Virus record (IMG/VR): IMGVR_UViG_3300027508_000036
Span: 1 to 28,014 of that record
From: a virus
DNA length: 28,014 bases
Direction: 5' to 3' (one strand)
The notes under the pieces are model-generated. The model was not told the origin of the DNA, did no database searches, and saw only the letters and a program-made list of their open reading frames with translations. Positions 1-28,014 of the stretch are shown here, piece after piece (position 1 is the first letter of the stretch; every line of letters begins with the position of its first letter). The position numbers were made by a program, and so were the translations under genes.

Positions 1-50
1 GTTAATTCATCAACAGATACACCACTTATAATTGATATACAATGAATCAT
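1..50 (-). CDS. possible start of a minus-strand gene, cut by window edge
   Basis: An ATG on the minus strand at 50-48 opens a frame that stays open for 16 codons to the window edge. It follows the stop of the DnaJ-like small gene by about 47 bases and has the same orientation as the whole left arm, so it may be the next gene. No product can be guessed and no clear promoter is visible. Chance is a real alternative with so few codons. Confidence 0.28.
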   Translation of the reverse strand, partial: MIHCISIISGVSVDEL

Positions 51-96
51 GGTTAATATCTGTTTGTTTCTGATTATTCCAACTATTGTACTACCA

Positions 97-333
97 TTAT
101 GTACTTCGTTTATTTCCATAGCCAGATGACTTGCTATTCTTAGCAACATCTGAATTGCCATCTTTTGTTTTTTTGATTCCATGTTTTTCTTTTTTATCTT
201 GACTTAAACCTGTACCATTACAATCGGGACATTGAAAAAAGATTTCTGCATCTTCATCAAAATCTATCCATCCACCTTCACCGCTACATCTTTTGCAATA
301 GAATATAGGATTAGTTCTCATGTGCTGGTTCAT
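97..333 (-). CDS. small protein with DnaJ-type zinc finger
   Basis: The 78-aa product carries two CxxCxGxG motifs, CKRCSGEG at residues 13-20 and CPDCNGTG at 35-42, separated by an acidic linker. This pair is the signature of half of the DnaJ cysteine-rich domain and can bind one zinc ion. There is no J-domain, so it is not a DnaJ co-chaperone; stand-alone versions are common as tiny phage and plasmid proteins of unknown function. The C-terminal half is Lys/Ser/Asn-rich and probably disordered. The start at 333 overlaps the upstream gene by 23 bases; a second ATG at 321 would shorten both protein and overlap. Function beyond zinc binding is unknown. Confidence 0.7.
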   Translation of the reverse strand: MNQHMRTNPIFYCKRCSGEGGWIDFDEDAEIFFQCPDCNGTGLSQDKKEKHGIKKTKDGNSDVAKNSKSSGYGNKRST

Positions 334-520
334 TTAGATTGTTAGTTACTTCGCCTAAAAATTTTTTCTCTCTTACTGGATTATCTCTCCAGTTGCTGAA
401 CAGGTCATACAACTGCTCGTATCTATCCTGCGAATACCATGCGTTATGGTATAACTCAGCTATGAATATCTGTCTTTCGTATGGCGTAAGGTCTGTGAAT
501 GTTGATAACGTATTTTCCAT
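311..520 (-). CDS. small hypothetical protein, 69 aa
   Basis: The 69-aa product is acidic and aromatic-rich, with a likely helical segment around residues 11-45 (TPYERQIFIAELYHNAWY). I do not recognise a family. It overlaps the downstream zinc-finger gene by 23 bases and follows the 42-aa membrane microprotein by 10 bases, which supports it as part of a compact minus-strand operon. A plus-strand frame over the same bases is less likely because all neighbours read minus. Confidence 0.6.
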   Translation of the reverse strand: MENTLSTFTDLTPYERQIFIAELYHNAWYSQDRYEQLYDLFSNWRDNPVREKKFLGEVTNNLNEPAHEN

Positions 521-530
521 GTTAAAAATT

Positions 531-659
531 TTAAAGATTAGGTAAATTATTTTTTGACATTTGGTATATTGTTATACCAATAGAAAGGATGAAAGCAATT
601 CCGATTCCATAGAAGGAATAGTTTAGTACTTCGTTTAGTTGGATGATTAAATTTTCCAT
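531..659 (-). CDS. membrane microprotein, 42 aa
   Basis: An ATG at 659-657 opens a 42-codon minus-strand frame ending in TAA at 533-531. The product begins MENLIIQLNEV and has one hydrophobic stretch (about residues 15-32, FYGIGIAFILSIGITIY) flanked by polar residues, ending in a short basic/polar tail, as expected for a single-pass membrane peptide. It fills an otherwise empty gap between two minus-strand genes. The ATG is preceded by an A-rich leader (AAAAATCAAAAAAAATCAAC) like those before other genes of this arm. No known family is recognised; expression is inferred from the context and leader. Confidence 0.55.
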   Translation of the reverse strand: MENLIIQLNEVLNYSFYGIGIAFILSIGITIYQMSKNNLPNL

Positions 660-681
660 GTTGATTTTTTTTGATTTTTAA

Positions 682-876
682 TTATAGGTTTGATTGTTTC
701 TTAACTTGTTCTGTATGCCAATCCAATTCTTTTATTTTAGATTCCATCTTATCCCTGACAAACCTACCTAACTCCTCGTAGGACTTCATGCCTAAAATAA
801 TCTGTGCATCTAATGTTATTGTCCTTTTACTTTCTTCATTAAATTGGATTACCTGTTTTGCATAATACTTTTCCAT
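682..876 (-). CDS. small hypothetical protein, 64 aa
   Basis: The 64-aa product begins MEKYYAKQVIQFNEES and is charged, with a probable C-terminal helix (SYEELGRFVRDKMESKIKEL). The central TLDAQIILGMKSYEELGRFV could suit a small dimeric DNA-binding or antitoxin-like fold, but no motif is decisive. It lies 11 bases after the 98-aa gene and is read in the same direction, consistent with one operon. Function unknown. Confidence 0.6.
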   Translation of the reverse strand: MEKYYAKQVIQFNEESKRTITLDAQIILGMKSYEELGRFVRDKMESKIKELDWHTEQVKKQSNL

Positions 877-887
877 GGTTAAATAGT

Positions 888-1184
888 TTATTCTTTACCT
901 GAATTTAATGCTCTGTTTATGATGTCATCAATATCGTTCTCATTTTCAATGTTACCCATGTTGATTATCTGTAGTATTTCCTTTGCTCTGCTATTGATGA
1001 TATTGATTGCTATCTCAATCTCATCATCATCAAGCAACTTCTCAACTTTAGCCATTGTAATAAGGGATGATATAATCCCATCCATAAACTTGTTGTATTC
1101 AGGATTATTCTGTATTGCTACATCAACAACAACCTTTGCCATCGTTGATATAAATAACTCCTGACCTTGCATAGACATTGACAT
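888..1184 (-). CDS. hypothetical helical protein, 98 aa
   Basis: The product (starting MSMSMQGQELFISTMAK) is predicted mostly helical and acidic, with an Ile/Asn/Glu-rich C-terminal half. A longer frame upstream would need a TTG start at 1226 inside the terminator hairpin, so I prefer the ATG at 1184; two further in-frame ATGs at 1178 and 1172 are possible. It lies just beyond the terminator of the amidotransferase gene, so it may need its own promoter or read-through. No family recognised. Confidence 0.6.
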   Translation of the reverse strand: MSMSMQGQELFISTMAKVVVDVAIQNNPEYNKFMDGIISSLITMAKVEKLLDDDEIEIAINIINSRAKEILQIINMGNIENENDIDDIINRALNSGKE

Positions 1185-1204
1185 ATTGGTATAATTTTTT
1201 AATT

Positions 1205-1237
1205 TTAAAAATTGGGGACAGGACAAACCTTGTCCCC
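1205..1237 (-). terminator. rho-independent terminator after the amidotransferase gene
   Basis: On the minus strand a perfect 7-bp stem (GGGGACA at 1214-1220 with TGTCCCC at 1231-1237, 10-base loop) is followed at once by a T/A-rich tract (AATTTTTAAAATT). It begins 20 bases past the amidotransferase stop codon. Confidence 0.75.
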
Positions 1238-1256
1238 GTATTCCTAACCACCATGA

Positions 1257-2243
1257 TTACAAAACTTTCAAATTAGGTTTTGGGTCTTCATAACTCTTGA
1301 TGCACAGGTCACATAAACGCCAATCCTCATGTGTATGTGATGCTACATTTACGTTACAATCATCGCAATAATTTATGTCACCATAATGCTTACCTGTGAT
1401 TGTCTTGGAATAGTTATCCTCATTCTTCACTCCTGTCAATCCGTATTCACCTTCACATTGTTTGCACAATCCCCAATCGTAACTATATTCATGCTTTCTT
1501 ACCCAATCATGACAATCCTGACAATACTCCCAATCATTTGTAGGATTGTTTTTAATCTCACAACAATCTGAATCAACATGAAAATCTAATTTATTCTGAA
1601 CTGGATAGGATGAAAATGTATCCTTATACTTACCTAATTTATTCTTAGATATTGACTTCTTGTCAACTTTCAATCCGCCATAATCCAACCATTCAGTTTT
1701 TCTAAAGTTAGTGTTACTGAACAGGACTCCTGTTTCACCATCAATAACACATGAATGTTCATTGACTACATAAACTTTGTTATCAACAGATAAGAATGCA
1801 AACTTACTACCTGTGATATCACGACTAATCATGTCCATGATACCACTATTCTTGTAAAAATCTTTTGGCAATTTCTTGATGACTTGCTCAATATACTGAA
1901 CTGTATCTGACTTCTGTATCGTTGAAGGAAATTGTCTTAGGATTCCGTTATGCACCATTGATAAACTCTGATTGATTAAGAAGGGATGTGTATTGTTATT
2001 GTTGATAGCACTTCCTGTAGCAATCCTGCCATGACCAATGAAATGTGATTGCGGATATTTTGCTTCAGCATCACAAAACTTCTTCCACATTGATTCAGGA
2101 CTGGGATTGGATGACTTGACAATAACTAATTTTGTTCCTGTAGTGTATACAAATCCAAATCCTTGCGGATTGTTTTCAATGATGTTAAGAAAATGCTCCT
2201 TGTTTAATCTTTGCTTAGGCTTTTTTACGAAGAATGTACACAT
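1257..2243 (-). CDS. class II glutamine amidotransferase with C-terminal zinc ribbons
   Basis: The 328-aa product is an Ntn-type class II glutamine amidotransferase: it should hydrolyse glutamine and hand ammonia to a partner enzyme. Visible hallmarks are the nucleophile Cys2 right after Met1, GHGRIATG at 70-77, THPF at 85-88, VHNG at 97-100 and SDT at 112-114, which match the glutamine-binding and oxyanion positions of the family. The synthetase domain usually fused to such domains (as in GlmS, PurF, AsnB) is absent. Instead the C-terminal third has four CxxC pairs arranged as two similar units (CQDC...DWGLCKQC and CDDC...DWRLCDLC), probably zinc-binding. The nearby amidoligase gene is the obvious candidate ammonia acceptor. 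It has its own promoter and terminator. Fold call is firm; substrate is unknown. Confidence 0.85.
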   Translation of the reverse strand: MCTFFVKKPKQRLNKEHFLNIIENNPQGFGFVYTTGTKLVIVKSSNPSPESMWKKFCDAEAKYPQSHFIGHGRIATGSAINNNNTHPFLINQSLSMVHNGILRQFPSTIQKSDTVQYIEQVIKKLPKDFYKNSGIMDMISRDITGSKFAFLSVDNKVYVVNEHSCVIDGETGVLFSNTNFRKTEWLDYGGLKVDKKSISKNKLGKYKDTFSSYPVQNKLDFHVDSDCCEIKNNPTNDWEYCQDCHDWVRKHEYSYDWGLCKQCEGEYGLTGVKNEDNYSKTITGKHYGDINYCDDCNVNVASHTHEDWRLCDLCIKSYEDPKPNLKVL

Positions 2244-2268
2244 GGTTTGTAATTTTTTGGTTAGAATA

Positions 2269-2299
2269 TAAAGTTAGGAAATAAATTTTGTTTGACAAA
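2269..2299 (-). promoter_or_regulatory. Bacteroidota-type promoter for the amidotransferase
   Basis: On the minus strand TTTG (2299-2296) is followed after 19 bases by TAACTTTA (2276-2269), one mismatch from TAnnTTTG. The predicted start lies about 20 bases before the ATG at 2243. Confidence 0.55.
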
Positions 2300-2337
2300 A
2301 AAATAGTGGGGAATGTTGGATGAATCCTCACCCCACT
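2297..2337 (-). terminator. rho-independent terminator after the amidoligase gene
   Basis: On the minus strand AGTGGGG pairs with CCCCACT (2331-2337 and 2305-2311), with a smaller inner GGAT/ATCC stem, followed by a seven-T tract (2303-2297). It starts 12 bases after the amidoligase stop codon. The T tract overlaps the -33 element of the next promoter. Confidence 0.8.
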
Positions 2338-2348
2338 ACCATCAATCA

Positions 2349-4289
2349 TCATCTTTGTATATTGTAGGTTTGTAAGAATTGTGGTGATTCAATAATCCAT
2401 TGAATTCCTTGACCTTCCATTCCGAATGCACCGAATGTATTGGTATCTGTAACTTCAACTGATAAGAAAAGCATAACACCATTATACATGTAGATGTAAC
2501 CTGATAAGCGATTCCGTATTCTTCTTTTTCTAATTAGGTAATTCAGTATACAGAATGCCATGAATGAAATTTTAATTGCACCATCCGTTACACCTGTTCG
2601 TGATGCTCTAACAAAACCATTTCTGAATGCATGTACCAATTCGGATGGCGTAGCACCTGCGAATGTCTGACTAAATTCATCATCCCTTGAATATCCAAAC
2701 TCATCTAAAGTTTTAGCAAGAATCTGAAAATCTGAAAGAGCTGGTGATGTTTGATTGCACAGATTATCTGCTCTGCCAATCATCAAACGTAAATCATTTG
2801 TATTGGCAGGAGTCCATCCTTCAACCTGTGAAGATGCCATTCTCAGTTCATGTGAATGCAGGAATGAATAAACACTAACTTCCTCTGTATTGCTTTGTTG
2901 CTCTTGTTGATTGTCACATTCAGCAACTTCTGTGATTGTTTCAATAACCTGTGGTGCAGGTACAGGAATGTGGAATACCACATCCTGCATCAACTTGTTT
3001 ACTTTTTTCTTACATGCAAGGGATATTTTGCCACATCCGTATTGCTCTGAATACTTTGCAAACAATCTCAACTTCTCTGTGAACTTAGCAACATCACCAT
3101 TCAGCACCACATTCAGTAAAAAGTTATGGATGTTTGTTGTAGGATTGGCTAACTCAAGCAATACCTTCATAGCTGTTTTCCCATACAGATTACCCATTAC
3201 CATTCGCATCAACTCAATTCTATTCTGTAGTACTTTAACATTCTTGATTGCAGGGAACAATCTAATCTCAAGCACATTCATATTTTTCAGGTAACATGCC
3301 TGATATTTATCCCTTCTTCTAAGGTAGGTAGAGAAATTTCTAACAGGACAATAGCTATTGCCTATTCTTTTTTCATAGATTGAATACAGGATAGGTAAGC
3401 TACCTTTAATTCCTTTAAGGATATCTCTTGACTCAATACCATTCATGGATATATTGAAATGTCCACCACATCTGTCACTTGTCCCTGCATTGAGAAAATC
3501 TGTAACAGGAGCAATACATTCATCAATAACCTGCTGATTGTATAGTGGTAAGATAGGACTGATTAGTTCAAATCCGTATTCACCTAAACTTCCATCTTCC
3601 TCTTTTTTGAATCCTGTTTCATGTGCCAACTTCATAGCAATACCTTCCTCTCTGAATTCGCTGGATGACTTCTCTGCTTCAAATCCAAAGTTGACTGCTT
3701 CAGGACTTTTGTCCATGAATTTAGTGAACTGCTTTTCAATCTCAGGATGCCAATGAGAATGATGATATCTCAGGATTGCTCTGTCACCATAGATTTCAGT
3801 CATACAATCTTTTTTAACCAACTTTCCTCTTTCAATAAAGGACTCCGTTAATCCTTCAGGGATGATTGAATCATCTACAATCACAAATTTTTTGTTTCCT
3901 TCTTCCAAGAATTTCAGGTTAGTTCTTTCAACAAGAAAATCAAAGAATCCTGATGTCACCTTAACATCTTTATCAATCAATCTCAGGTATTGACAATTAC
4001 TCCATGAAGAATTATCAACACAGAATGAACGTAACTCATGCCCATACACATTGGTATTCATTCCTGACATACGAACAAGGGATTTGTAGTTTTCCCTTAC
4101 TGATTGCTCTGACCATCCACCACTAATTGTGGATAGGGCTAACCTGCAATTTTCATCCTCTGAATTGTAGGTATCATTTCTCAATGATAACATGTGATTG
4201 AATGCTGACTCATTCATTGGCAACAGAATCTTTTTTCTGTCTGTTCCTGTGCAGTTGATAACTGCAAACTTTCTGACTAACTTTTTCAT
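2349..4289 (-). CDS. amidoligase-family protein (COOH-NH2 ligase fold)
   Basis: The 646-aa product contains an Amidoligase_2-type domain at about residues 200-370. Its motifs are FGFEAE at 201-206, EDGSLGEYGFELISP at 231-245, CGGHFNISM at 274-282 and VLEIRLF at 339-345; these fit the E.E, DgS..gvElvSP, cG.H.n and EfRlf motifs of the glutamine-synthetase/gamma-glutamyl-cysteine-ligase-like superfamily, which joins a carboxylate to an amine using ATP. About 200 N-terminal and 275 C-terminal residues are unrecognised; the latter includes a helical region and possible membrane-proximal hydrophobic stretches near residues 575-625. The glutamine amidotransferase gene follows. Likely role is forming an amide on a peptide, protein or wall component; the substrate cannot be read from sequence. 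Confidence 0.8.
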   Translation of the reverse strand: MKKLVRKFAVINCTGTDRKKILLPMNESAFNHMLSLRNDTYNSEDENCRLALSTISGGWSEQSVRENYKSLVRMSGMNTNVYGHELRSFCVDNSSWSNCQYLRLIDKDVKVTSGFFDFLVERTNLKFLEEGNKKFVIVDDSIIPEGLTESFIERGKLVKKDCMTEIYGDRAILRYHHSHWHPEIEKQFTKFMDKSPEAVNFGFEAEKSSSEFREEGIAMKLAHETGFKKEEDGSLGEYGFELISPILPLYNQQVIDECIAPVTDFLNAGTSDRCGGHFNISMNGIESRDILKGIKGSLPILYSIYEKRIGNSYCPVRNFSTYLRRRDKYQACYLKNMNVLEIRLFPAIKNVKVLQNRIELMRMVMGNLYGKTAMKVLLELANPTTNIHNFLLNVVLNGDVAKFTEKLRLFAKYSEQYGCGKISLACKKKVNKLMQDVVFHIPVPAPQVIETITEVAECDNQQEQQSNTEEVSVYSFLHSHELRMASSQVEGWTPANTNDLRLMIGRADNLCNQTSPALSDFQILAKTLDEFGYSRDDEFSQTFAGATPSELVHAFRNGFVRASRTGVTDGAIKISFMAFCILNYLIRKRRIRNRLSGYIYMYNGVMLFLSVEVTDTNTFGAFGMEGQGIQWIIESPQFLQTYNIQR

Positions 4290-4317
4290 GATGATTGAAA
4301 TTTGATGATTGATTAAT

Positions 4318-4380
4318 TGTTTACAAACAAACGAAATACTTTTGGGATTGTTGTTTTTTATGTTGTTAAAACTTTGTTAA
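4318..4380 (-). promoter_or_regulatory. duplicated operator-like boxes before the amidoligase gene
   Basis: This segment holds box B (4318-4339, pattern TGTTTACAnACAAACnAAAT on the plus strand) and box A (4363-4380, TTGTTAAAACTTTGTTAA). Both recur upstream of the winged-helix gene: box B with 19 of 22 identities, box A exactly but inverted. No clean TAnnTTTG box is seen, so the amidoligase may be read from the upstream promoter with this as a control or secondary start site. Confidence 0.5.
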
Positions 4381-4571
4381 TGCTTTTTTGACTTCAATTC
4401 TCTGTATGTATCTGCATAGGCATAGCATCCCATAACAGATATTGCAAACAGGATAGACATACAGGTAAGATTGACTCCTGTAGGATTAGTGAACATGATG
4501 AACATGTACGGGATTGCTAAGGACATAAACCCGTAAAAAATAGATGCGAATAAACAGATTGACTTTTTCAT
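4377..4571 (-). CDS. small membrane protein, two helices
   Basis: The 64-aa product has two strongly hydrophobic stretches (about residues 4-27 and 32-53) separated by a short polar NPTG turn, and a basic C-terminal tail (RELKSKKH). This predicts a hairpin inner-membrane protein with both ends cytoplasmic. The ATG is preceded by the shared A/T-rich leader (AATCAATCATC just before ATG). It sits between the 74-aa gene and the amidoligase gene in the same direction. No family recognised; a holin is not excluded but position and small size alone do not argue for it. Confidence 0.65.
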   Translation of the reverse strand: MKKSICLFASIFYGFMSLAIPYMFIMFTNPTGVNLTCMSILFAISVMGCYAYADTYRELKSKKH

Positions 4572-4594
4572 GATGATTGATTTTTGATGATTGG

Positions 4595-4819
4595 TTATAA
4601 ATAGTAAGTAAAATTTTCTGCTTTGATTGTTACGTTATTTTCGTATGGCTTAAGATGCTCTCTCATTTCTCTTTTATCGTAATATGTGACTGCATCCAAC
4701 AACTTGTCACCATTGTACAATTCTGCTTCATAGTATCTGCAATCATCATCATATTCTGTGATGATTCTCACTAAGGTGACTGACTCAAACTTCTCAAACA
4801 AACTCTTAAACTTATTCAT
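4595..4819 (-). CDS. small hypothetical protein, 74 aa
   Basis: The 74-aa product begins MNKFKSLFEKFESVTLVRI and appears alpha/beta with several short strands (RYYEAELYNGDKLLDAVTYY). It is acidic and rich in Tyr. No known family is evident. It lies 39 bases after the winged-helix gene and 23 bases before the membrane-protein gene, so it is most simply cotranscribed from the promoter at about 5230. Confidence 0.6.
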   Translation of the reverse strand: MNKFKSLFEKFESVTLVRIITEYDDDCRYYEAELYNGDKLLDAVTYYDKREMREHLKPYENNVTIKAENFTYYL

Positions 4820-4858
4820 AAAAAATATGCGTTGAATAGTCGCATCCCTATTTTTAAA

Positions 4859-5188
4859 TTATTCAATTATTGATGCTTCCAATTCACCTTCGTTATTCTC
4901 TACCCAATGTTCCACTAATCCCTGTGCTTCATTGTCAAGGTAGATGATTGGTTCCCATGATGGGTCATTTGCTCTGTATCCTACATGGTCTGTCCTGTCC
5001 TCTACCTGTACAAGTTTTTTCTTAACTAAGGATGAAATAACTCCTCTCACAACTTTTGTTTCAATACCTGTTTCCCTTGCAACATCTGTTGCACCAATGT
5101 CTGAGAATCCCCATTCTGCATACATACAATCTGCAATACATTGTAGGACTTGTTTCTCTAATTCGGTAAGATTTTTAATTGCTCTCAT
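4859..5188 (-). CDS. winged-helix DNA-binding regulator
   Basis: The 109-aa product has a helix-turn-helix at about residues 34-57 (TDVARETGIETKVVRGVISS) followed by a charged wing-like hairpin (KKLVQVEDRTDHVGYR), as in MarR-like winged helices; the N-terminal LTELEKQVLQCIADCM fits a first helix. The acidic C-terminus may carry a short dimerisation helix. It is first in the minus-strand block, next to the strong promoter and to boxes A and B, so autoregulation and control of the block are plausible inferences. Family-level call is moderate to good; its actual DNA target is unproven. Confidence 0.65.
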   Translation of the reverse strand: MRAIKNLTELEKQVLQCIADCMYAEWGFSDIGATDVARETGIETKVVRGVISSLVKKKLVQVEDRTDHVGYRANDPSWEPIIYLDNEAQGLVEHWVENNEGELEASIIE

Positions 5189-5226
5189 GGTGATTTTTTT
5201 TTGATGATTGATTAATGAATCGGTAG

Positions 5227-5258
5227 CAAATATAGTGTGTGTTTACATACAAACCAAA
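5227..5258 (-). promoter_or_regulatory. Bacteroidota-type promoter for the left arm
   Basis: On the minus strand TTTG (5258-5255), a 20-base spacer and a perfect TATATTTG (5234-5227) match the Bacteroidota consensus. It reads toward the winged-helix gene 39 bases away. Confidence 0.8.
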
Positions 5259-5290
5259 TAATTTTAAGGATGTTAACAAAGTTTTAACAA
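5240..5290 (-). promoter_or_regulatory. operator-like boxes A and B at the left-arm promoter
   Basis: Box B lies at 5240-5261, over the -33 element, and box A at 5273-5290 (TTAACAAAGTTTTAACAA), an imperfect palindrome with GTTAA/TTAAC ends. Both recur before the amidoligase gene. A protein bound at box B would cover the promoter. Confidence 0.5.
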
Positions 5291-5775
5291 ATCCATAGCT
5301 AAGTAATTGATTCCCAATAAAAGGATTTTTAACAGAATCTGAATGCAGTTTTGAAATAGGTTTCAGAAATATGTAAAGGAAAAAATACAGGTTAGGTTTT
5401 GTGCATACATGCATGTGCAGGATATTAATAATATAAGGCATGGGTAATCTTACACGTTTACAGGTAGGCATAGCTACATAAAACACATAACGCATTGATT
5501 TAGAATGGATTAGGCATGATAGTCATCCACAGATTGACCTACCCACTCAGCAAAACCATTTCCCACAGGGCATGGGCTGGGCTGGTAATATGCGGGAACC
5601 CTATGCTCATACCACTATTTTACATTTTAGTCCCCCACCCGGTAAATCCCCCTGCATATATATCCCCTGAGCTGTCAAGGAATCCTTGACTGTTGGTACA
5701 TTACATAATTCTAGTCCTTTATTTTACATTTTTAGGGTATTTACTGGAACGTAAAAAGGTCGTAAAGCTAAATAT
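5291..5775. other. divergent intergenic region without a convincing gene
   Basis: No frame here has a plausible start or context on either strand. Visible elements are a 10-bp palindrome ACATGCATGT (5407-5416), C-rich runs at 5632-5667 (C5, C3, C5 and C4; four G runs on the minus strand, so a quadruplex is possible), a hairpin at 5674-5690, and a direct repeat TATTTTACATTTT(T)AG at about 5616-5630 and 5719-5735. The region is probably regulatory and may include an origin. Confidence 0.5.
5674..5690. repeat. perfect 7-bp inverted repeat
   Basis: GTCAAGG-AAT-CCTTGAC forms a perfect 17-base palindrome with a three-base centre. It has no T tract, so it looks more like an operator or origin hairpin than a terminator. 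Confidence 0.55.
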
Positions 5776-5833
5776 GGCTATAAGGCTGTAAGGCTGTAAG
5801 AACTATAATAAACTGGACTACTATAATAGACTG
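5776..5833 (+). repeat. iteron-like direct repeats upstream of the RepL-like gene
   Basis: Three tandem octamers (GGCTATAA, GGCTGTAA, GGCTGTAA) at 5776-5799 are followed by an 18-base-period repeat CTATAATAAACTG (5803-5815) and CTATAATAGACTG (5821-5833). Such iterons next to a Rep-like gene can mark a replication origin; regulatory repeats are the alternative. Confidence 0.5.
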
Positions 5834-5893
5834 TAATATATATAAGAAGGAAACCTCATAACTCTATGATTATCAACAACCATAAAACATTAT

Positions 5894-5925
5894 TTTGTTT
5901 TTTAAAACTGAAAAGGATATATTTG
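5894..5925 (+). promoter_or_regulatory. Bacteroidota-type promoter for the RepL-like gene
   Basis: TTTG (5894-5897), a 20-base spacer and a perfect TATATTTG (5918-5925) lie 21 bases before the ATG at 5947. Confidence 0.8.
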
Positions 5926-5946
5926 TAGTCTAAACCAAAGATAGAT

Positions 5947-6405
5947 ATGAAATCAGTTCAAGCATTTCTAGAGAACCCATTTAAGGTGGAGGGTGTTACT
6001 ACAATTACCTACACTCCAAAGGTAGACGAAAAAATTGTAACAGACCCAGAGACGGGTGAGTTGTTTACAATAAGGAAGCTACCCAAGAGCCAGCAGCACC
6101 TGCATGATTCGAGGGTATATGTTAAGCTCTTTCAGGAGAGTCATGAAACCCTGCTCAAGCTTCCGCATGTTTCACTTAAGATATTAATATATGCGATGTG
6201 TAAGGTTAGACCACTTAGTGAGATTGTGTTCTTGCATGTGGATGACTGCATGGTGGCATGTGGTTTTAAGTCAGCTACATCGTACCGGGAAGGTATTCGT
6301 TTTTTGATTGAGCACAATGTTCTTGCAAGGAAGATGGGGTCTACGATGGAGTACTGGATAAATCCTAATATTTTCTTTAATGGAAATAGATTAAGACTAG
6401 CATAG
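5947..6405 (+). CDS. RepL-like winged-helix protein
   Basis: The 152-aa product has a winged-helix region at about residues 56-146 that ends in YWINPNIFFNG (136-146). This resembles the ending of RepL-type plasmid replication initiators, where the wing leads into a Y.iNP..f..G motif, and the helix pair DDCMVACGFKSATSYREGIR (99-118) fits a recognition helix. RepL-like genes also occur in Bacteroidota phages. The protein could start replication at the iteron-like repeats just upstream, or act as a transcription regulator of the same fold. The start at 5947 is the first ATG after a near-consensus promoter. Fold is fairly clear, the exact role is not. Confidence 0.65.
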   Translation: MKSVQAFLENPFKVEGVTTITYTPKVDEKIVTDPETGELFTIRKLPKSQQHLHDSRVYVKLFQESHETLLKLPHVSLKILIYAMCKVRPLSEIVFLHVDDCMVACGFKSATSYREGIRFLIEHNVLARKMGSTMEYWINPNIFFNGNRLRLA

Positions 6406-6407
6406 AC

Positions 6408-6439
6408 TTGTAACAAATTTTGGTGTATTTTTGTTACAA
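6408..6439 (+). promoter_or_regulatory. inverted repeat overlapping a TAnnTTTG promoter box
   Basis: TTGTAACAAA (6408-6417) and TTTGTTACAA (6430-6439) are exact inverse complements around a 12-base loop. The right arm overlaps the -10-like box TATTTTTG (6426-6433), which precedes the next ATG by 14 bases. This could be an operator, or a weak terminator since it begins two bases after the RepL-like stop. Confidence 0.6.
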
Positions 6440-6447
6440 ATAGAATT

Positions 6448-6801
6448 ATGGCAAGTATTGATATAGATGAAGTTGTACAGTCTTTATACTGTGTTAGCGT
6501 TAGTGCACATGTAGCTCATGTAAACACTCGTTCATTTGCACAGCATGAGGCCTTGGGCGACTTCTATGAAAAAGCGAATAGCTTTAAAGATAGATTTATT
6601 GAGTATTGCATGGGGGCTGGGTTTTTAAATCAAGTTCAGCTTGAAGAGATTGAAGCGGAAGATTTGATGGATGAAGCAGAAGAGGCGTGCTACAATCTAC
6701 TAGAGTTTGCTGATGCTACTAAGGATGAGACCATAAAGAATATGGCTGCTGATTTCTTAGAAGCTAAGAATAAGCTGAAGTATATGTTAATGCTTAAATA
6801 A
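6448..6801 (+). CDS. Dps/ferritin-like four-helix protein
   Basis: The 117-aa product carries a segment (about residues 18-53) with His21, His24, His33 and Glu34 in the pattern SAHVAHVNTRSFAQHEALGDFY followed by FKDRFIEY. It resembles the first helices of small Dps-like phage proteins in which H..., ...HkALgefY and vDe..E motifs recur. It is shorter than true Dps (about 150-170 aa), so ferroxidase activity or cage assembly cannot be assumed. The rest is helical and acidic (EEIEAEDLMDEAEEA). Its role in phage is unknown. A near-leaderless transcript from 6426-6433 would express it separately from the RepL-like gene. Confidence 0.6.
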   Translation: MASIDIDEVVQSLYCVSVSAHVAHVNTRSFAQHEALGDFYEKANSFKDRFIEYCMGAGFLNQVQLEEIEAEDLMDEAEEACYNLLEFADATKDETIKNMAADFLEAKNKLKYMLMLK

Positions 6802-6807
6802 ATTTAG

Positions 6808-6930
6808 ATGGCAAGGGCAAAATCAGCTGGGGATAACCGCAAGGTTAAGTTTGGTAAGAGAAGAAAAGGTTCTGCACAGAAGTCATTTAATAAGCATGAT
6901 AGGAAAGACAGAAAGTATAGAAGGAAATGA
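6808..6930 (+). CDS. very basic 40-aa protein
   Basis: An ATG at 6808, six bases after the previous stop, opens a 40-codon frame ending in TGA at 6928-6930; the start codon of the next gene overlaps it as ATGA. The product begins MARAKSAGDNRKVKFGKRRK and is roughly two-fifths Lys/Arg with almost no hydrophobic residues, so it is likely nucleic-acid binding and disordered. The ATGA coupling at the 3' end and the conserved spacing to its neighbour support it as a real gene. No family recognised. Confidence 0.65.
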   Translation: MARAKSAGDNRKVKFGKRRKGSAQKSFNKHDRKDRKYRRK

Positions 6931-7316
6931 GTACCGCAACAAAAACAAATCCTGCATTATGGAAACGAATAGTATCAAGGGTAAAGTCTGGTTCTCGTGG
7001 GGGAGATTCGGGGGAGTGGAGTGCGAGAAAAGCACAATTAGCGGTAGCCTTATACAAAAAATCTGGTGGTGGCTATCAAGGAAAGAAGTCAAGCTCAAAT
7101 TCGTTGTCGAAGTGGACGAAGCAGAACTGGACGACTTCATCTGGGAAACCCTCCAATGGGAAGATGAGATACCTGCCAAAGAAAGCTTGGGAAGCCCTAA
7201 GCCAAAAGGAAAAGGCAGCAACAAACAGAGCAAAGGCAGAGGGGGACAGAAAGGGAAAGCAGTTCGTGGCACAGCCAAAGGAAATAGCAAAAAAGGTAAA
7301 AAGGTATAGGAAATGA
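6927..7316 (+). CDS. basic DUF5872-like protein
   Basis: The 129-aa product shows the pattern LWKRIVSRVK (11-20), GEWSARKAQLAVALYKKSGG (29-48), a KWTKQNWTT segment (62-70), and RYLPKKAWEAL (81-91). I recall this as a DUF5872-type domain, found in phages and large eukaryotic DNA viruses; its function is not known. Its high Lys/Arg content and Trp-containing conserved motifs fit nucleic-acid binding. It is translationally coupled at both ends (ATGA overlaps with the 40-aa gene before and the 102-aa gene after). Two overlapping frames on either strand here are shadows: they lack coupling and family resemblance. Confidence 0.75.
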   Translation: MSTATKTNPALWKRIVSRVKSGSRGGDSGEWSARKAQLAVALYKKSGGGYQGKKSSSNSLSKWTKQNWTTSSGKPSNGKMRYLPKKAWEALSQKEKAATNRAKAEGDRKGKQFVAQPKEIAKKVKRYRK

Positions 7317-7621
7317 TATCAGGAGTAAAGAGAGTGGCTGGCGGTATTATGTACCGTGGGGAAAAGTTTCCCGGCTTTAACAAGCCAAAGAATGCTCCTG
7401 CTGGTGATAGCCATAAAAAAGTGGTACTAGCCAAGAAGGGTGATAAGGTAAAAAAGATTAAATTTGGTTATAGAGGTATGCAGGATTTTACCCAGCACAA
7501 AGACCCGAAGCGTAGAAAAAACTACTTAGCTCGGTCTGGCGGGATTAAAAACAAATCCGGTGCCCTAACTAAAAACGATATATTCTCAGCTAACTACTGG
7601 GCGAGACGTGTTCTCTGGTAA
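7313..7621 (+). CDS. basic virus-type hypothetical protein, 102 aa
   Basis: The 102-aa product has two recognisable parts: a central SHKKVVLAKKGDKVKKIKFG (33-52), and a C-terminal RRKNYLARSGGI...SANYWARRVLW (68-102). I have seen similar basic proteins, with RRKsfrAR and YW..r.LW elements, annotated as unknown in phages and algal viruses; I do not assign a domain name. It is coupled by an ATGA overlap to the DUF5872-like gene and ends the operon at a strong terminator. It is likely nucleic-acid or virion associated, on composition only. Confidence 0.7.
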   Translation: MISGVKRVAGGIMYRGEKFPGFNKPKNAPAGDSHKKVVLAKKGDKVKKIKFGYRGMQDFTQHKDPKRRKNYLARSGGIKNKSGALTKNDIFSANYWARRVLW

Positions 7622-7657
7622 TCTAGCTTTTTTCATGTTTGATTTTTTGGTTGAAAG

Positions 7658-7682
7658 AGCCCTGTTTCTACAGGGCTTTTTT
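7658..7682 (+). terminator. strong rho-independent terminator
   Basis: AGCCCTGT (7658-7665), loop TTCT, ACAGGGCT (7670-7677), then six T residues. It closes the basic-protein operon. Confidence 0.92.
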
Positions 7683-7685
7683 GTG

Positions 7686-7693
7686 TATTTTTG
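7686..7693 (+). promoter_or_regulatory. TAnnTTTG promoter box for the zincin-like gene
   Basis: TATTTTTG lies four bases after the terminator T tract and only four bases before the ATG at 7698. No good -33 TTTG is at the right distance. If used, the transcript would be essentially leaderless. Confidence 0.5.
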
Positions 7694-7697
7694 TGGA

Positions 7698-8141
7698 ATG
7701 ACACTCTATAAAACCTTCAATTATAAGATTCCGATTTTCTATGTTCCCCTCAAGATTGTGGTGGGGATGACGATGAGGGATGCCCTAAAGAGCAAGGTGT
7801 TTAGTAAAGAGGATAGGGAGGAATGTAGCGACTCAGGTGCTCTGGCGTTTACACAAAAGGACTCCATATATCTTGCTATCCCATCTGCTGACGAGGACAT
7901 TCAGTATGTCGTGCATGAAATAATCCATGCCAAGAACTATTTATATAAGATGAGAGGTATACTTCCAGATGTAGAAAACGATGAGAATGAGGCATATCTG
8001 GTTCAATATATCTACGAGAAATGTATTGATGCAAGAAGAAAGTTCTTTAACTTTGTATCCAAACAAAGGGATAATGAAGCTATTGCACAACAAGGCATTG
8101 GTTCTGGTGGACCCGGAAGCCAAGTCGAAGAAGAAGATTAG
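7698..8141 (+). CDS. zincin-like metallopeptidase-type protein
   Basis: The 147-aa product has an HExxH motif, HEIIH at residues 73-77 (YVVHEIIHAKN), and a possible third zinc ligand Glu98 in NENEAYL, an arrangement seen in short phage and mobile-element zincins. Longer in-frame starts at 7608 read through the terminator, so ATG 7698 is preferred. The last 23 codons overlap the next gene. The C-terminal tail is Gly/Gln/Glu-rich. In phage it could process a virion or host protein, but these compact zincins are often annotated only as hypothetical; proteolysis is inferred from the motif alone. Confidence 0.65.
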   Translation: MTLYKTFNYKIPIFYVPLKIVVGMTMRDALKSKVFSKEDREECSDSGALAFTQKDSIYLAIPSADEDIQYVVHEIIHAKNYLYKMRGILPDVENDENEAYLVQYIYEKCIDARRKFFNFVSKQRDNEAIAQQGIGSGGPGSQVEEED

Positions 8142-8646
8142 CACCCCGATGGGTGATATAGAACTCTATATTGCCAGCGACTATTCATGGGACAGCAGGG
8201 TTTCTTCAAGTACAAGCGGTATACTTCTTGAAGATTTTAAGGGTGCACCCAAAGGCTCAGTAGTTATATTCAACCACAGGGCAACCACACAGGATAACGA
8301 GATTGATGACAAAATATATTTAATTGACAATGCATTCATATACTTCTACCTTGATGGGAACGACCCAGTTCCCTTCGCAGGTTATTTTCTCATTTCCCGA
8401 ATCAAGAAACGCAAGTACTCCTCAGAGCTGGTGCATATACCAGACGGATGGGCTGAGGACAACTACGACAATATCTTCAGAATTGAGAGAACTCCGAGAG
8501 GACACACAGATTTTCATGCAGGTCAGGAAGTGATAGCATATAAGTATAGCGACTACGAGATACCCTATGCTGTAAACGGAGTCCATGCAAGTGTGATACG
8601 TCTTAAAGAGGATGATATATTAGCTTTATCATATATGGAATTATAA
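8074..8646 (+). CDS. GroES-like co-chaperonin candidate
   Basis: The 190-aa product starts MKLLHNKALVLVDPE, like the beta-strand start of co-chaperonins, has a GSVVIFN stretch at 61-67 and ends VIRLKEDDILALSYMEL, close to the vlim.esDILAi ending of GroES. It is about twice GroES length, and a second GQEVIAYKY stretch (150-158) suggests a duplicated or expanded barrel, as in T4 gp31-type proteins that help fold capsid protein. This is motif resemblance, not proof. ATG 8074 gives a 68-base overlap with the zincin gene; a later ATG at 8149 would remove the overlap but also the N-terminal strand, so 8074 is preferred. Confidence 0.45.
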   Translation: MKLLHNKALVLVDPEAKSKKKISTPMGDIELYIASDYSWDSRVSSSTSGILLEDFKGAPKGSVVIFNHRATTQDNEIDDKIYLIDNAFIYFYLDGNDPVPFAGYFLISRIKKRKYSSELVHIPDGWAEDNYDNIFRIERTPRGHTDFHAGQEVIAYKYSDYEIPYAVNGVHASVIRLKEDDILALSYMEL

Positions 8647-16695: not shown

Positions 16696-16727
16696 TTTGT
16701 AATAAACCAACAAAATGACTATCTTTG
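16696..16727 (+). promoter_or_regulatory. Bacteroidota-type promoter after the capsid gene
   Basis: TTTG (16696-16699), a 20-base spacer and TATCTTTG (16720-16727) match the consensus fully. The next ATG (16749) lies 21 bases downstream. Confidence 0.8.
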
Positions 16728-20476: not shown

Positions 20477-23400
20477 ATGGCACAATTTTCACAGCCTAAA
20501 AGCATTAATGGTGGTCTTAATACAGACTATGACAATGAGTTATTGCCATCTGGTGACTACATTGATGCTAGAAATATAAGCACCTATGGTGGCGTAAATA
20601 ATATAGTTGGTAATGCCGAAATTCAGTTAAAGGATTTAGACGGCTCTACGAACTTTTTTTTAACAAGCAGCCACGTTGTAGTAGGCTCTGTTACAAATAC
20701 GCTAAGAGATTCTATTATTTATCTTATAGCTCATACGGGTGGGAATCACTTAATAACTGAGTATAATCAGATAACTAATATCCACTCAATCATTGTAAAG
20801 TGTGGAACAAATGCACAGAGTGCAGCAATAAACTTATCAACAACTGTTCAATGTCATAACCCAAGAATTATCAATCGTGCAGATACTTCAGAAGAAGGTG
20901 ATTTGCTATTCTGGCTTGATAAAGACGGAGTTCCAAGAAAGCTAAATATAAGAAAAGCTAAGACGCTTGGCTACTTTGGCAACATCATTGAGGAGTTTAC
21001 AACGGTTATAAAGAAGCCACCTATGTTCTCTCCGTCAAATGTAAACCTAGTTAGGGTTAGTGACGGAAGCTTGATTGTGCAAAATAAAATGTACCAATTC
21101 GCATATAGGTACATATACGATGATTATGAGAAATCTGTTTTTTCACCGATTTCAAATACTCTTATCCCATACTACATATTCAATGAAACCAACATTATAC
21201 CTACTGATACTTCTATAGGGTACAATGCGGTAAGGTTTACAATACAATCTGGCTCTGCAAACGTAAAGGAGATTGAGGTAATCTATAGGGAGTATTTTGA
21301 TGGAATATGGAGCAACTTTTACACCATAGATACTATAGTATCAACTGGCTCTCCTATAACATACACCTTTACTGGTGCTGGTCAGAAAATACCTTTAGAT
21401 AATTCTGAGGCACCAGATGTTTTGCAGTTTGACTATGTTCCTATTTCAGCTAAGGCTCAGGAAGTAGTAAACGGAAATGTTATAACATACGGAAACTTTA
21501 AAGAAGGATATAATAAGTCAAACATATCTTCTACTGTTGGTCTAACATCTTCAAATTACGTTAGTGATAATAAGATGTTCTTTGACGACAACTTGAATCC
21601 AGCATCTAATATGATACTGAATCCGGGCGGTAAGTATAAGATTGGAGTGGTATACCTTGATGAGCATGGAAGAAATGTGGGTGTGTTTACTGGGAATAGC
21701 ATGGTTGTTGATGTACCACATATCCATTGGTCTCCATCTCTTTTAGCTGCCGGAACAGGTACTGCTTGGTGGAATACAAGACAGACTTATTTACCATATA
21801 TTCAGATAAGCTCTGCAGCACCATCTTGGGCTAAGTATTTCAGACTAGCTATTACAGAAGATAATAACTATGAGTCAGAGGTTATAACAGATGTTATAGA
21901 TTTTAAATATGGGGCACTCAGTACAAGCGGTTTAACCTGTAGTCTTACTAACATAAGCATACTACCTCAGCCTAATGGCGGACCTGCTGCCGACATACCA
22001 TTTTATAAGTCTTATGGAAGTCATCAATTCTTAAAGGTAACATATAGTAATTGTGACACAAATGCACCAACAACCTCATATTACGATATAAGTCTAAATC
22101 CGCATTCATTGACATATAGGAATAAGCCTATCAATGACCCCGGAAGGATGATTTTTGAGTACAAGAAGCTTGTTTCTGCTGTAGAGAATACGGATTATAC
22201 TGTTACCGTAAATACTCCACCACAAGCTGGAGGATATACAAATTCAATACCTACTAATGATTTTCAGCCAACTATAATATCACCATCTGGTCAGTCTACA
22301 GTATGGACAGTAGAGTGGAGGTATGTTGGCTCTACTAATACATATCAAGATGTAAGATTACAGGTTTACTATACTGGTAGTATATATGGAGCAGCAAGAC
22401 TCCCATCTGACCCTACCGCATATATAAATCTTACCAACCCAGATACAATAGTTCCCAATCAGAACTTCCTGTTCTATACAGATTATAGAGTACTAAACTC
22501 TGGTGACTATATAAGTCAGGCGTTTATTTATTCAGCAAATGAGTATGCACAGGGGGCTAGTGGAACTGTTACTGTTACAAACACATCAGCAGACATTATT
22601 TATGTTTCCTCTGGTGGTGCTTCAGTAGCTATAAATCCGGGTGCTTCTGCACAGATTAGTGTTCAATACGGATATACGATATCTGCTTACAAATATCAGA
22701 CAGTTACTGGTTCTGTGAGTGATTCATATGTTACTGTTACTATTGTAAATAGCGGTGTTCTGCCGTCTAATGACCAAACGGTTCCAAGACAGTTGGCACT
22801 TAGAATAAACAATCTTGGTTATACTTTCCAGAGTGGTGATGAAATATCTATAGTTTATGATTACTATAAGAATAAACTACAATCTGGTGCGTATGATGGT
22901 ATAGGTATCAACGAAAAGGTTTTCAAAGTAATAGACCTTCTTATAGACCCAGAGTTTTATGAGTCTAATGGAACTACTGTTACACTAGATGGTAATTGGA
23001 TTCAAGTAGATGAGTCTGCTAAAGACTTTATGACTGCATGCGGTGATACCTCTGGTGCTACACAAATTATTGGTCTAAAGGCAAAGATTCTTAGAAGAAA
23101 GAAGATTACTTCTACAGGCTCTCAGGGTGATGTATTTTACGAACTACCACATACGTTCCTTTGTAGCTCATACGTTGCTGGAACGCAAATTGAAATGACA
23201 CTAGCTGGTGATTCCATGTTTAAATCTGATTATGTGGTTCTTGAGGGTTCAACGGCTACTCCGGTTGGTGGAAAGACGGATTCGGTTCAACGTGTGTTCT
23301 ATTCAAGTGTACCAACTAAAAACTACTTGATTCAAGAGGACAATCTTTCTCCACTTTTCTTAACTAAGATTAATAAGAACGGAAGACCAGCCGTAGAAGA

Positions 23401-24430
23401 TAAACAAGCTAGACAAAGAGAGTTTCCTGCAACTGTAAGATGGTCGCAGAATCTTGAGTTTAATAGTAATGTCAATGGATTGAATAGGTTTTTATACTTA
23501 GATTTTAAAGACCTAGATGCTTCATTTGGTCCTATTAAAAGATTAAGTGTTAGGGATAGAATGCTGAGAACTTATCAAGAGGATAAGGTTGGTATGCTCC
23601 CTGTCTATCAGTCAATTATTACAAACGCTGCTGGTGGAACGGATTTGACACTATCTACCGAGCTATTTAATAATGTCCAGTACTATGCTGGTAATTATTC
23701 TATAGGTAATGCTACGGGAAGCTTGGTGTCTGATTCTTATGCAGATTATTTTATAGATGATATACGAAAAGCTGTTTGCCGTCTTGGATTAGAAGGTATC
23801 ACACCGATATCCATTACTACAAATATGAACTCTTGGGCTACAGAAAATATCCTTGATGATGCTAAGTATGTTGCTGGATACGACTCTTCTAACAGAAGTG
23901 TTATATTCTCAAGTGAGAAGGGTAGTAATAAGTTCACTATATGCTATTCTGAGAGAACCGAGAGATTCGATTCCTTCTATACATACTACCCGTACACAAT
24001 TAATTCTCTGAATAACAGACTGTACACTTCTTTTAATACTGGAACTTTATGGGAGCACAAGAGTAATGTTAGCTACTGCAACTTCTATGGAGTTCAGAAT
24101 GATGCTAAAATAAGGGTGATTCTAAATGAGAATCCTATTGTAAAGAAGATATTTATGACCTTTACGGAAGTGGCAAATAGTTTATGGGTTGCTGATTATG
24201 TGAAAGGGGCTGCAAACGTGCTAGATTCGTCTATACCGTATTCATTTTTTAGAAATCAAGAAGGGTTCTTTAATGCTCCTTTCTTGAGGGATAGCGGAGC
24301 TGCTACGCCAACAACGGGTAAGCCGATAAGAGGAAACTGGTGTATTATGGAATTAAAAGCTTTAACCCCGTCTAATTATGTAACTTTGCTTATGCTCAAA
24401 TATGGGTATAACGAATCAAAGATAAATTGA
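20477..24430 (+). CDS. giant tail protein, tail-tube-B or stabilisation-like
   Basis: The 1317-aa product begins MAQFSQPKSINGGLNTDYDN with INGGLNTDYDNELLPSGDY and is predominantly beta across its length. Such a start is typical of large podovirus nozzle or stabilisation proteins that follow the adaptor gene (T7 gp12 or P22 gp10-like roles). Between about residues 690 and 765 lies a Thr/Val/Ser-rich stretch (SGTVTVTNTSADIIYVSSGG) resembling an inserted Ig-like or repeat domain. It forms most of the tail below the connector, probably contacting the host. Family not named; a crAss-like muzzle protein is a fair analogy. Confidence 0.7.
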   Translation: MAQFSQPKSINGGLNTDYDNELLPSGDYIDARNISTYGGVNNIVGNAEIQLKDLDGSTNFFLTSSHVVVGSVTNTLRDSIIYLIAHTGGNHLITEYNQITNIHSIIVKCGTNAQSAAINLSTTVQCHNPRIINRADTSEEGDLLFWLDKDGVPRKLNIRKAKTLGYFGNIIEEFTTVIKKPPMFSPSNVNLVRVSDGSLIVQNKMYQFAYRYIYDDYEKSVFSPISNTLIPYYIFNETNIIPTDTSIGYNAVRFTIQSGSANVKEIEVIYREYFDGIWSNFYTIDTIVSTGSPITYTFTGAGQKIPLDNSEAPDVLQFDYVPISAKAQEVVNGNVITYGNFKEGYNKSNISSTVGLTSSNYVSDNKMFFDDNLNPASNMILNPGGKYKIGVVYLDEHGRNVGVFTGNSMVVDVPHIHWSPSLLAAGTGTAWWNTRQTYLPYIQISSAAPSWAKYFRLAITEDNNYESEVITDVIDFKYGALSTSGLTCSLTNISILPQPNGGPAADIPFYKSYGSHQFLKVTYSNCDTNAPTTSYYDISLNPHSLTYRNKPINDPGRMIFEYKKLVSAVENTDYTVTVNTPPQAGGYTNSIPTNDFQPTIISPSGQSTVWTVEWRYVGSTNTYQDVRLQVYYTGSIYGAARLPSDPTAYINLTNPDTIVPNQNFLFYTDYRVLNSGDYISQAFIYSANEYAQGASGTVTVTNTSADIIYVSSGGASVAINPGASAQISVQYGYTISAYKYQTVTGSVSDSYVTVTIVNSGVLPSNDQTVPRQLALRINNLGYTFQSGDEISIVYDYYKNKLQSGAYDGIGINEKVFKVIDLLIDPEFYESNGTTVTLDGNWIQVDESAKDFMTACGDTSGATQIIGLKAKILRRKKITSTGSQGDVFYELPHTFLCSSYVAGTQIEMTLAGDSMFKSDYVVLEGSTATPVGGKTDSVQRVFYSSVPTKNYLIQEDNLSPLFLTKINKNGRPAVEDKQARQREFPATVRWSQNLEFNSNVNGLNRFLYLDFKDLDASFGPIKRLSVRDRMLRTYQEDKVGMLPVYQSIITNAAGGTDLTLSTELFNNVQYYAGNYSIGNATGSLVSDSYADYFIDDIRKAVCRLGLEGITPISITTNMNSWATENILDDAKYVAGYDSSNRSVIFSSEKGSNKFTICYSERTERFDSFYTYYPYTINSLNNRLYTSFNTGTLWEHKSNVSYCNFYGVQNDAKIRVILNENPIVKKIFMTFTEVANSLWVADYVKGAANVLDSSIPYSFFRNQEGFFNAPFLRDSGAATPTTGKPIRGNWCIMELKALTPSNYVTLLMLKYGYNESKIN

Positions 24431-27060: not shown

Positions 27061-28014
27061 ATGAATTTTGAACAAAATTTTAGCCCTTTAGACACAGAGA
27101 GTTCCGAGTATCAATCTATAAATATAGTACCACTCGTAGAGCCTATTTCTAATCAAACAGACCAAGAGGAGCCTAAGCTACCTTCACTATCTGAGAAAGC
27201 TAAAGGAGTAAAGGATACTATGCCCCCACAGGTTAAGGCTCCAAACTTTGAGAACCTTAAGCTGACTACATGGAAACAGACTGGTGGTCAAAAAATAATT
27301 GATGTTGTTATTACTCCTCAGATACAATCTGTATACGATTCATTTAAGTACTCTCAGGATTATATCAATGCTGTAATTAAGGATAAATTAGATACCCTAC
27401 CACAACAATCACAAGAAAGAGAAAATCTTAGAGGATATATCTACAAAGCCAATGAGGCTAATACCGTAGAAACAGGTGCTGTCAGAACAGAACTCGTTTA
27501 TAATATGATGAACGAATTTTCTGACATTCAAACTAATAATAGAACAAGAGATTCATTTATAAGAAGCCAATATAGTCCAGCGTATCACTCCGAGTCAAAA
27601 GCACTCAGGGATGAGTACGAATCTTCTGAGCTAAAGGGTTTTCTTTCAAAAAGACAATATTCTGCCCTTAAATCTCTTTCATATGGAAAGCAGGCAGACT
27701 ATCAAGAATATATCAAGGTTATAACTGATGATAAAGCTCCTGCGGTAGACAAAGAGTTAGCGTTACTTAATCTAGATAGAATAGGAACAGGTATAGATTT
27801 AGACGCTTCTGCTAAACTGATATTTGACGCTAAATCTGGTCAGATTGATAAATCAAAAATCAATGAAGGGGTAAATCTATACAACAAGTCTACATCAGAT
27901 TTTGCATCAGTTGACGAAAAGATAAAAACACTTGAGCTTAATAATCCATACAATCTAACAGTAGCTAAAGGGATATTTAATCGTGCTATCCAAAGAGGAT
28001 TAGCCGTAGGTGCT
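27061..28014 (+). CDS. large virion-region protein, cut by window edge
   Basis: A frame from ATG 27061 stays open for 318 codons to the window end without a stop. The N-terminus (MNFEQNFSPLDTESSEYQSI) is polar and disordered; later parts are helical and charged (KALRDEYESSELKGFLSKRQ). Position after two ejection-type genes suggests a large internal virion protein, as in T7 gp16 or the big virion proteins of crAss-like phages. Nothing in the visible part shows an enzymatic domain; the missing 3' portion would decide. Confidence 0.65.
   Translation, partial: MNFEQNFSPLDTESSEYQSINIVPLVEPISNQTDQEEPKLPSLSEKAKGVKDTMPPQVKAPNFENLKLTTWKQTGGQKIIDVVITPQIQSVYDSFKYSQDYINAVIKDKLDTLPQQSQERENLRGYIYKANEANTVETGAVRTELVYNMMNEFSDIQTNNRTRDSFIRSQYSPAYHSESKALRDEYESSELKGFLSKRQYSALKSLSYGKQADYQEYIKVITDDKAPAVDKELALLNLDRIGTGIDLDASAKLIFDAKSGQIDKSKINEGVNLYNKSTSDFASVDEKIKTLELNNPYNLTVAKGIFNRAIQRGLAVGA

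Follow-up and report, generated by a model that had tools for sequence, protein, structure and literature searches.

In the phage literature, an amidoligase gene associated with a class II glutamine amidotransferase (GAT-II) gene has already been published for phiEco32, LUZ24-like, Marvin and OM43 phages. The 'peptidoglycan modification module' described for phiEco32, LUZ24/PaP3/tf, RIO-1 and PSA-HP1 consists of an amidoligase and a GAT-II (with GGCT, COOH-NH2 ligase and ATP-grasp as further members), and such a cassette is reported from many podoviruses (PMC5498523, PMC11945000). The genes of LUZ24-like phages are listed in PMC3890496 and PMC3517423. PMC10580990 places PF12224 with a GATase in MEP401, MEP402 and more than 30 viral genomes, and cites Iyer 2009 for a wall change in phiEco32 that blocks superinfection. 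The statement in a preliminary description of the present locus that amidoligases neighbour class II amidotransferases in other elements is borne out for phages (PMC10580990, PMC5498523, PMC11945000, PMC3890496). These cassettes recur in unrelated phages; a substrate was demonstrated for no phage member in the literature covered, and the same holds for action on peptidoglycan.

Here we describe an adjacent amidoligase and GAT-II in a crAss-like phage. The analysed window comprises an entire IMG/VR record (28,014 bases; Table 1). No open-access paper was found that mentions 'crAss-like' and 'amidoligase' together, so the pair is apparently unreported for crAss-like phages in open-access literature; this is weak evidence because most subscription papers lay outside the search.

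Table 1. Features of the analysed window (positions in bases; parts of proteins in residues)
Feature	Position	Strand	Remarks
Whole record IMGVR_UViG_3300027508_000036	28,014 bases		genome fragment
Small conserved protein	888..1226	minus	downstream of GAT in related crAss-like records; association only
GAT-II protein (GAT), 328 aa	1257..2243	minus	intact ORF; Ntn-hydrolase domain 1-200; two CxxC..CxxC zinc-ribbon-like units at 241-263 and 293-314
Bacteroidota-type promoter-like site	2269..2299	minus	TTTG-N19-TAACTTTA; 25 bases before GAT start
Terminator-like hairpin	2297..2340	minus	GGUAGUGGGG..CCCCACUAUU, then U run; between ligase and GAT genes
Amidoligase, 646 aa	2349..4289	minus	intact ORF; divergent N-terminal region ~1-180; Amidoligase_2 core ~199-443; variable C-terminal extension ~444-646
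Hydrophobic protein, 64 aa	4377..4571	minus	probably membrane; just upstream of ligase
Muzzle protein	20477-24430	plus	virion gene; PF25731, E 1e-19
Terminase		plus	virion gene; phrog_6681
Portal		plus	virion gene; phrog_6547

Results

Identity of the ligase

The motifs and coordinates of the ligase were as given in the preliminary description. FGFEAE was found at residues 201-206, EDGSLGEYGFELIS (the DGS..GFE motif) from 231, CGGHFNIS at 274-281 and EIRLF at 341-345, and all were invariant or nearly so in an alignment of 20 homologues; the invariant residues were G202, E204, E206, D232-G233-S234, G239, E241, C274-G275-G276-H277, E341, R343 and F345. When the single sequence was compared with Pfam, PF12224 was matched over residues 214-295 at 15.7 bits (E 0.014), below the gathering cut-off of 22, and only 5 of the 20 aligned sequences matched it at E<=1 (best E 0.0018), so Pfam by itself does not settle the identity of the ligase. 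Sub-threshold matches to PET122, integrase and SPDY were discarded. However, hhalign aligned the ligase alignment with four phage proteins at 97.6% probability (E 2.9e-12), with GxExE, DGS..GFE, CGxH and ExRxF all in register; each of these four proteins individually matches PF12224, two of them above the cut-off by hmmscan. Alignment to accepted Amidoligase_2 members over the catalytic core was obtained profile to profile.

In the AlphaFold2 model, the core (~199-443) was mostly above pLDDT 65 and reached 94, with a dip at 313-328; much of 1-100 and of 444-646 was of low confidence. Foldseek with this model returned 36 viral proteins at E<=0.001, their informative names being mostly 'amidoligase' and including the annotated proteins of phages tf, CW02 and Vp_R1. 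No PDB structure was matched at E<=0.001; the top matches were GmaS, YbdK, glutamine synthetase and Dop/PafA, with GCS lower, and all were weak (E>=0.0018). The core of the 646-aa protein is a divergent Amidoligase_2 ligase, and the model predicts that it has the glutamine-synthetase/GCS fold. The core was 50-74% identical to that of crAss-like relatives and the flanking regions 17-49%, indicating that selection centres on the core.

One catalytic motif deviates. The second His of HxH was replaced by Asn or Thr in all 20 homologues and in phage ctfjg026, the remaining catalytic motifs being conserved. The same position is Asn in two further phage amidoligase-type proteins, StenR_269 and LR756500, showing that the deviation is not unique to this clade.

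Other searches with the ligase gave little. Scanning viral contigs with the single sequence yielded no relative. Bacterial and archaeal genomes, scanned with an alignment, gave none either, so this motif method recovered no cellular homologue. The profile found only chance matches among PDB sequences, and PHROGs gave nothing useful.

Identity of the amidotransferase

GAT matched PF13230 (GATase_4) at 24 bits, over the cut-off of 23. Cys2 (in an MC start), Arg73, Asn84/His86/Pro87, His98-Asn99-Gly100 and Asp113 were invariant in 14 homologues, in agreement with the reading of a stand-alone class II domain with Cys2 and the glutamine-pocket motifs. Residues 1-200 of the structure model were confident and matched the glutaminase domain of GlmS (E 4.8e-6), PurF and EgtC, with GlmS scoring slightly above EgtC. 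Sequence and model together indicate that this part is a class II amidotransferase with the Ntn-hydrolase fold, a predicted glutaminase. No synthetase domain follows it; the two ribbon-like units stand there instead, in the low-confidence part of the model (200-328).

The preliminary description had also mentioned zinc ribbons. Zinc-ribbon-like CxxC pairs are present in GAT (C241/C244, C260/C263, C293/C296 and C311/C314), and both units were kept in all three crAss-like sequences aligned. They are not in the ligase: an N-terminal ribbon is absent, and the sole Cx2-4[CH] match in that protein is the catalytic CGGH.

Conservation of the pair

The two genes lay side by side in the same order in three related crAss-like records (L007, L009 and L010), with 58-66% identity for GAT and 38-50% for the ligase; in L008, GAT was near the contig end. 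Homologues of both proteins in other phage contigs at 38-66% identity show that these are real genes. Marine phage contigs (L016-L040) carried a 316-aa ligase, corresponding to residues 193-469, that overlapped a GAT-II+GGACT fusion. The fusion adjoined the marine ligase in 24 of 25 loci, the exception (L026) ending just past the ligase. In a BLAST search, our ligase matched ctfjg026 at E 2e-8, where a GAT-II+GGACT protein likewise follows; this match is a further line of support for the ligase identity. The 316-aa form had no match in 50,697 named phage records. The marine cassette (4872-6843 in L016, and in L017-L040) sits among recombination and replication genes.

Among named phages, MEP402, Marvin, ctgrD200, StenR_269, RHph_N3_19 and KZY1 have an amidoligase, GS-like or ATP-grasp gene directly adjoining GAT or close to it; the sole exception among those examined was a Bifidobacterium phage, with no such ligase gene near GAT by Pfam. 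Ligase and GAT thus co-occur in the window, the three crAss-like records and 24 of 25 marine loci, and in most other phages examined GAT has an amidoligase or ATP-grasp gene nearby. This recurrent adjacency, with the profile and fold matches, supports the original reading of an amidoligase with a stand-alone GAT-II. GGACT was not found in the window or in four related records (G001-G004), nor was COOH-NH2_lig (PF14395) in the window or G001-G003. ATP-grasp had no match among 20 proteins of a 67-kb relative, the window itself being a 28-kb fragment.

Source phage

The source phage is crAss-like because the virion genes for terminase, portal and muzzle protein are present; the muzzle gene also occurred in the records of L007, L009 and L010. 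The nearest kin of the terminase, at 28-31% identity, were those of Cellulophaga phages phi13:2 and phi19:3, Flavobacterium elemo phages and ctfjg026. This kinship and the promoter form described below suggest a Bacteroidota host. The pair lies on the strand opposite to the virion genes, which fits modification of the host better than modification of the virion.

Some features of the contigs were recorded separately. An open ORF at 27061-28014 runs off the end of the window. Bases 1-8302 of the L010 record (G003) were without any complete ORF of at least 130 aa; they are probably a very long gene leaving the contig end, like that ORF, with stop-codon recoding as the alternative. L009 and L011 are the same ligase/GAT region at both ends of one contig (IMGVR_UViG_3300042306_000227, 73,267 bases), which suggests that a circular ~67-kb genome, similar to L010 (67,211 bases), was assembled with overlapping ends.

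Transcription signals and neighbouring genes

The terminator-like hairpin between the two genes has a G/C-rich counterpart at the same place in L007, L009 and L010. Compared with shuffles, hairpin energies were strong in L009/L010 (z -3.9) but modest in L007 (-1.4) and in the window (-1.8). Exact TTTG-N19-TAnnTTTG, the Bacteroidota -33/-7 promoter form, stood at the same place ahead of GAT in L007, L009 and L010. The conserved hairpin and promoter-like site indicate that the genes probably do not form a single simple operon; one transcription unit for both is disfavoured, and the signals suggest that ligase and GAT are probably transcribed at least partly independently. A standard sigma-70 and terminator scan performed at chance level and was uninformative, its loop limit having missed the hairpin.

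In L007, L009 and L010, a homologue of the 64-aa protein immediately precedes the ligase gene, and several small genes downstream of GAT also had homologues in these records.

Three copies of a 32-base leader, ATTAATCAATCATCAAA..AATCATCATG (minus strand), at least 84% identical, stood at 4286-4317, 4568-4599 and 5185-5216, immediately before the minus-strand start codons of the ligase, the 64-aa protein and a 109-aa protein. Its 14-base core occurred 20 times with up to 3 mismatches, compared with 8.75 expected in shuffles. Exact TTTG-N20-TAnnTTTG was present at 5227-5258, 5894-5925 and 16696-16727, each 21-38 bases before a start codon; the window held four matches (one intragenic), against 1.5 in shuffles (maximum 3). 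The 109-aa winged-helix-like protein (4859-5188), which has both a promoter-like site and the leader repeat, matched TrmB at 21 bits, below the cut-off, and is possibly an early regulator.

Discussion

Function of the pair

In this locus a ligase core of the GS-fold carboxylate-amine type stands next to an Ntn glutaminase domain, and the pairing is conserved. How the two activities are coupled, in which direction the chemistry runs and what the target is, we infer as follows. The ligase would use ATP to activate a carboxylate as an acyl-phosphate, as in glutamine-synthetase/GCS-like chemistry, and join it to an amine, giving an amide. GAT would hydrolyse the gamma-amide of glutamine, or that of a gamma-glutamyl product, and may thereby provide the ligase with ammonia or glutamate or turn over the ligase product, as EgtC removes gamma-glutamyl groups. 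Gamma-glutamyl chemistry is suggested by related loci, where GAT is fused to GGACT, a domain with the gamma-glutamyl-amine cyclotransferase fold. With about even confidence, we propose that the pair is a phage amide-bond module altering a host cell-wall or envelope component during infection. The target would most probably be a peptidoglycan precursor or stem peptide, for which literature proposals are the sole basis (PMC5498523, PMC11945000 and PMC10580990), and the change might serve, for example, to exclude competing phages. The neighbourhood holds nothing specific to peptidoglycan. Counting against the module reading are the sub-cut-off Pfam score, the failure of any PDB structure to match the ligase at E<=0.001, the HxN/T change, the missing PF14395 and GGACT partners and the probably separate transcription signals.

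In a rival reading, GAT reverses the ligase reaction instead of feeding it. EgtA/EgtC serve ergothioneine synthesis and BtrJ/BtrG serve butirosin, each with a ligase and a partner that removes the gamma-glutamyl group. By analogy, the phage ligase may attach a gamma-glutamyl group to an amine that the Ntn-hydrolase later removes, in a cycle of protection or turnover. We consider this rather unlikely. In its favour, EgtC ranks close behind GlmS near the head of the PDB list for GAT, related loci fuse GAT to GGACT, and the promoter-like signal of GAT's own would be expected if the timing of the two proteins differed; but the slight advantage of GlmS runs the other way, the shared pocket residues do not discriminate, and the GGACT fusion of related loci is missing from the crAss-like version. 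A more specific form is improbable in our judgement: the crAss-like pair would be a separately timed switch between gamma-glutamylation and de-glutamylation, in which the ribbon-bearing Ntn-hydrolase, under its own promoter, replaces the removal role of the marine GGACT.

The amide may also be formed on a target other than the cell wall: on a small metabolite or signalling peptide, or by glutamylation or amidation of a phage or host protein. A secondary-metabolite suggestion noted for phage Marvin (PMC10580990) favours the former. For the latter, the Pup system offers a precedent of protein modification by GS-fold ligases, its PafA and Dop appearing weakly in our PDB list, and the long variable N- and C-terminal ligase regions could bind a protein. 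Those regions are little conserved, however, and the early region of the 67-kb relative yielded neither a recognisable tag protein nor biosynthetic partners. We give this reading as a whole a low probability. That the pair hypermodifies phage DNA, so that a base carries an amide as in the 7-amido-deazaguanine or aminated thymidine systems, is very improbable. Some phage base modifications do involve class II amidotransferases (Gat-QueC), and the marine cassette has replication genes around it; but the scanned genes of the window and the 67-kb relative included no recognisable QueC, transglycosylase, nucleotide kinase or base hydroxylase. With neither a QueC-like domain nor a partner found, the Gat-QueC type was rejected. 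Alteration of the host wall or envelope remains our preferred reading, and if the wall is the target, the pair bears on how Bacteroidota phages alter their hosts during infection.

Comparison with known systems

Both the association and the wall hypothesis have been published, so the pair belongs to a known kind. With the peptidoglycan modification module it shares an amidoligase close to GAT-II and apart from the virion genes, the GS-fold motifs and the Cys2 nucleophile. Unlike that module, the crAss-like form shows only two of the enzymes, with GGACT, PF14395 and ATP-grasp partners not recognised, and its ligase carries long extra N- and C-terminal regions. The EgtA/EgtC and BtrJ/BtrG systems likewise combine a ligase with a gamma-glutamyl-cleaving partner, and EgtC is a top fold match of GAT; the analogy is one of logic alone, and no pathway partner was found here.

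Marvin gp105/gp106, the Methylophilales phages MEP401/MEP402 and ctgrD200 resemble the crAss-like locus in having two adjacent genes with no GGACT seen alongside. Their proteins are 18-28% identical to ours and have the standard HxH where ours has HxN. The preliminary description left undecided whether a version with zinc ribbons had been described: the association has, and zinc-ribbon-like CxxC pairs occur in both Marvin proteins and in the ligase of MEP402 (an OM43 phage), but they are placed differently there.

The marine ligases and ctfjg026 (MW202828) are the nearest non-crAss-like relatives, with ~30% identity over residues 193-469 (E down to 1e-30), and the H-x-(N/T) motif is common to them and the crAss-like ligase. 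The marine ligase lacks the extra terminal regions, and its GAT is followed by GGACT where the crAss-like GAT has two ribbons; in ctfjg026, GGACT is accompanied by a single ribbon. The reduced pair and the marine form together suggest that the essential parts are the ligase core and the GAT-II domain, and the two-enzyme crAss-like form with Bacteroidota-type promoters offers a compact pair for in vitro work. The present analysis adds the occurrence in crAss-like phages, the connection to the marine 316-aa ligase form, the location of the ribbons, the replacement of HxH by HxN/T and the separate signals for transcription. The crAss-like pair extends a known theme and opens no new one.
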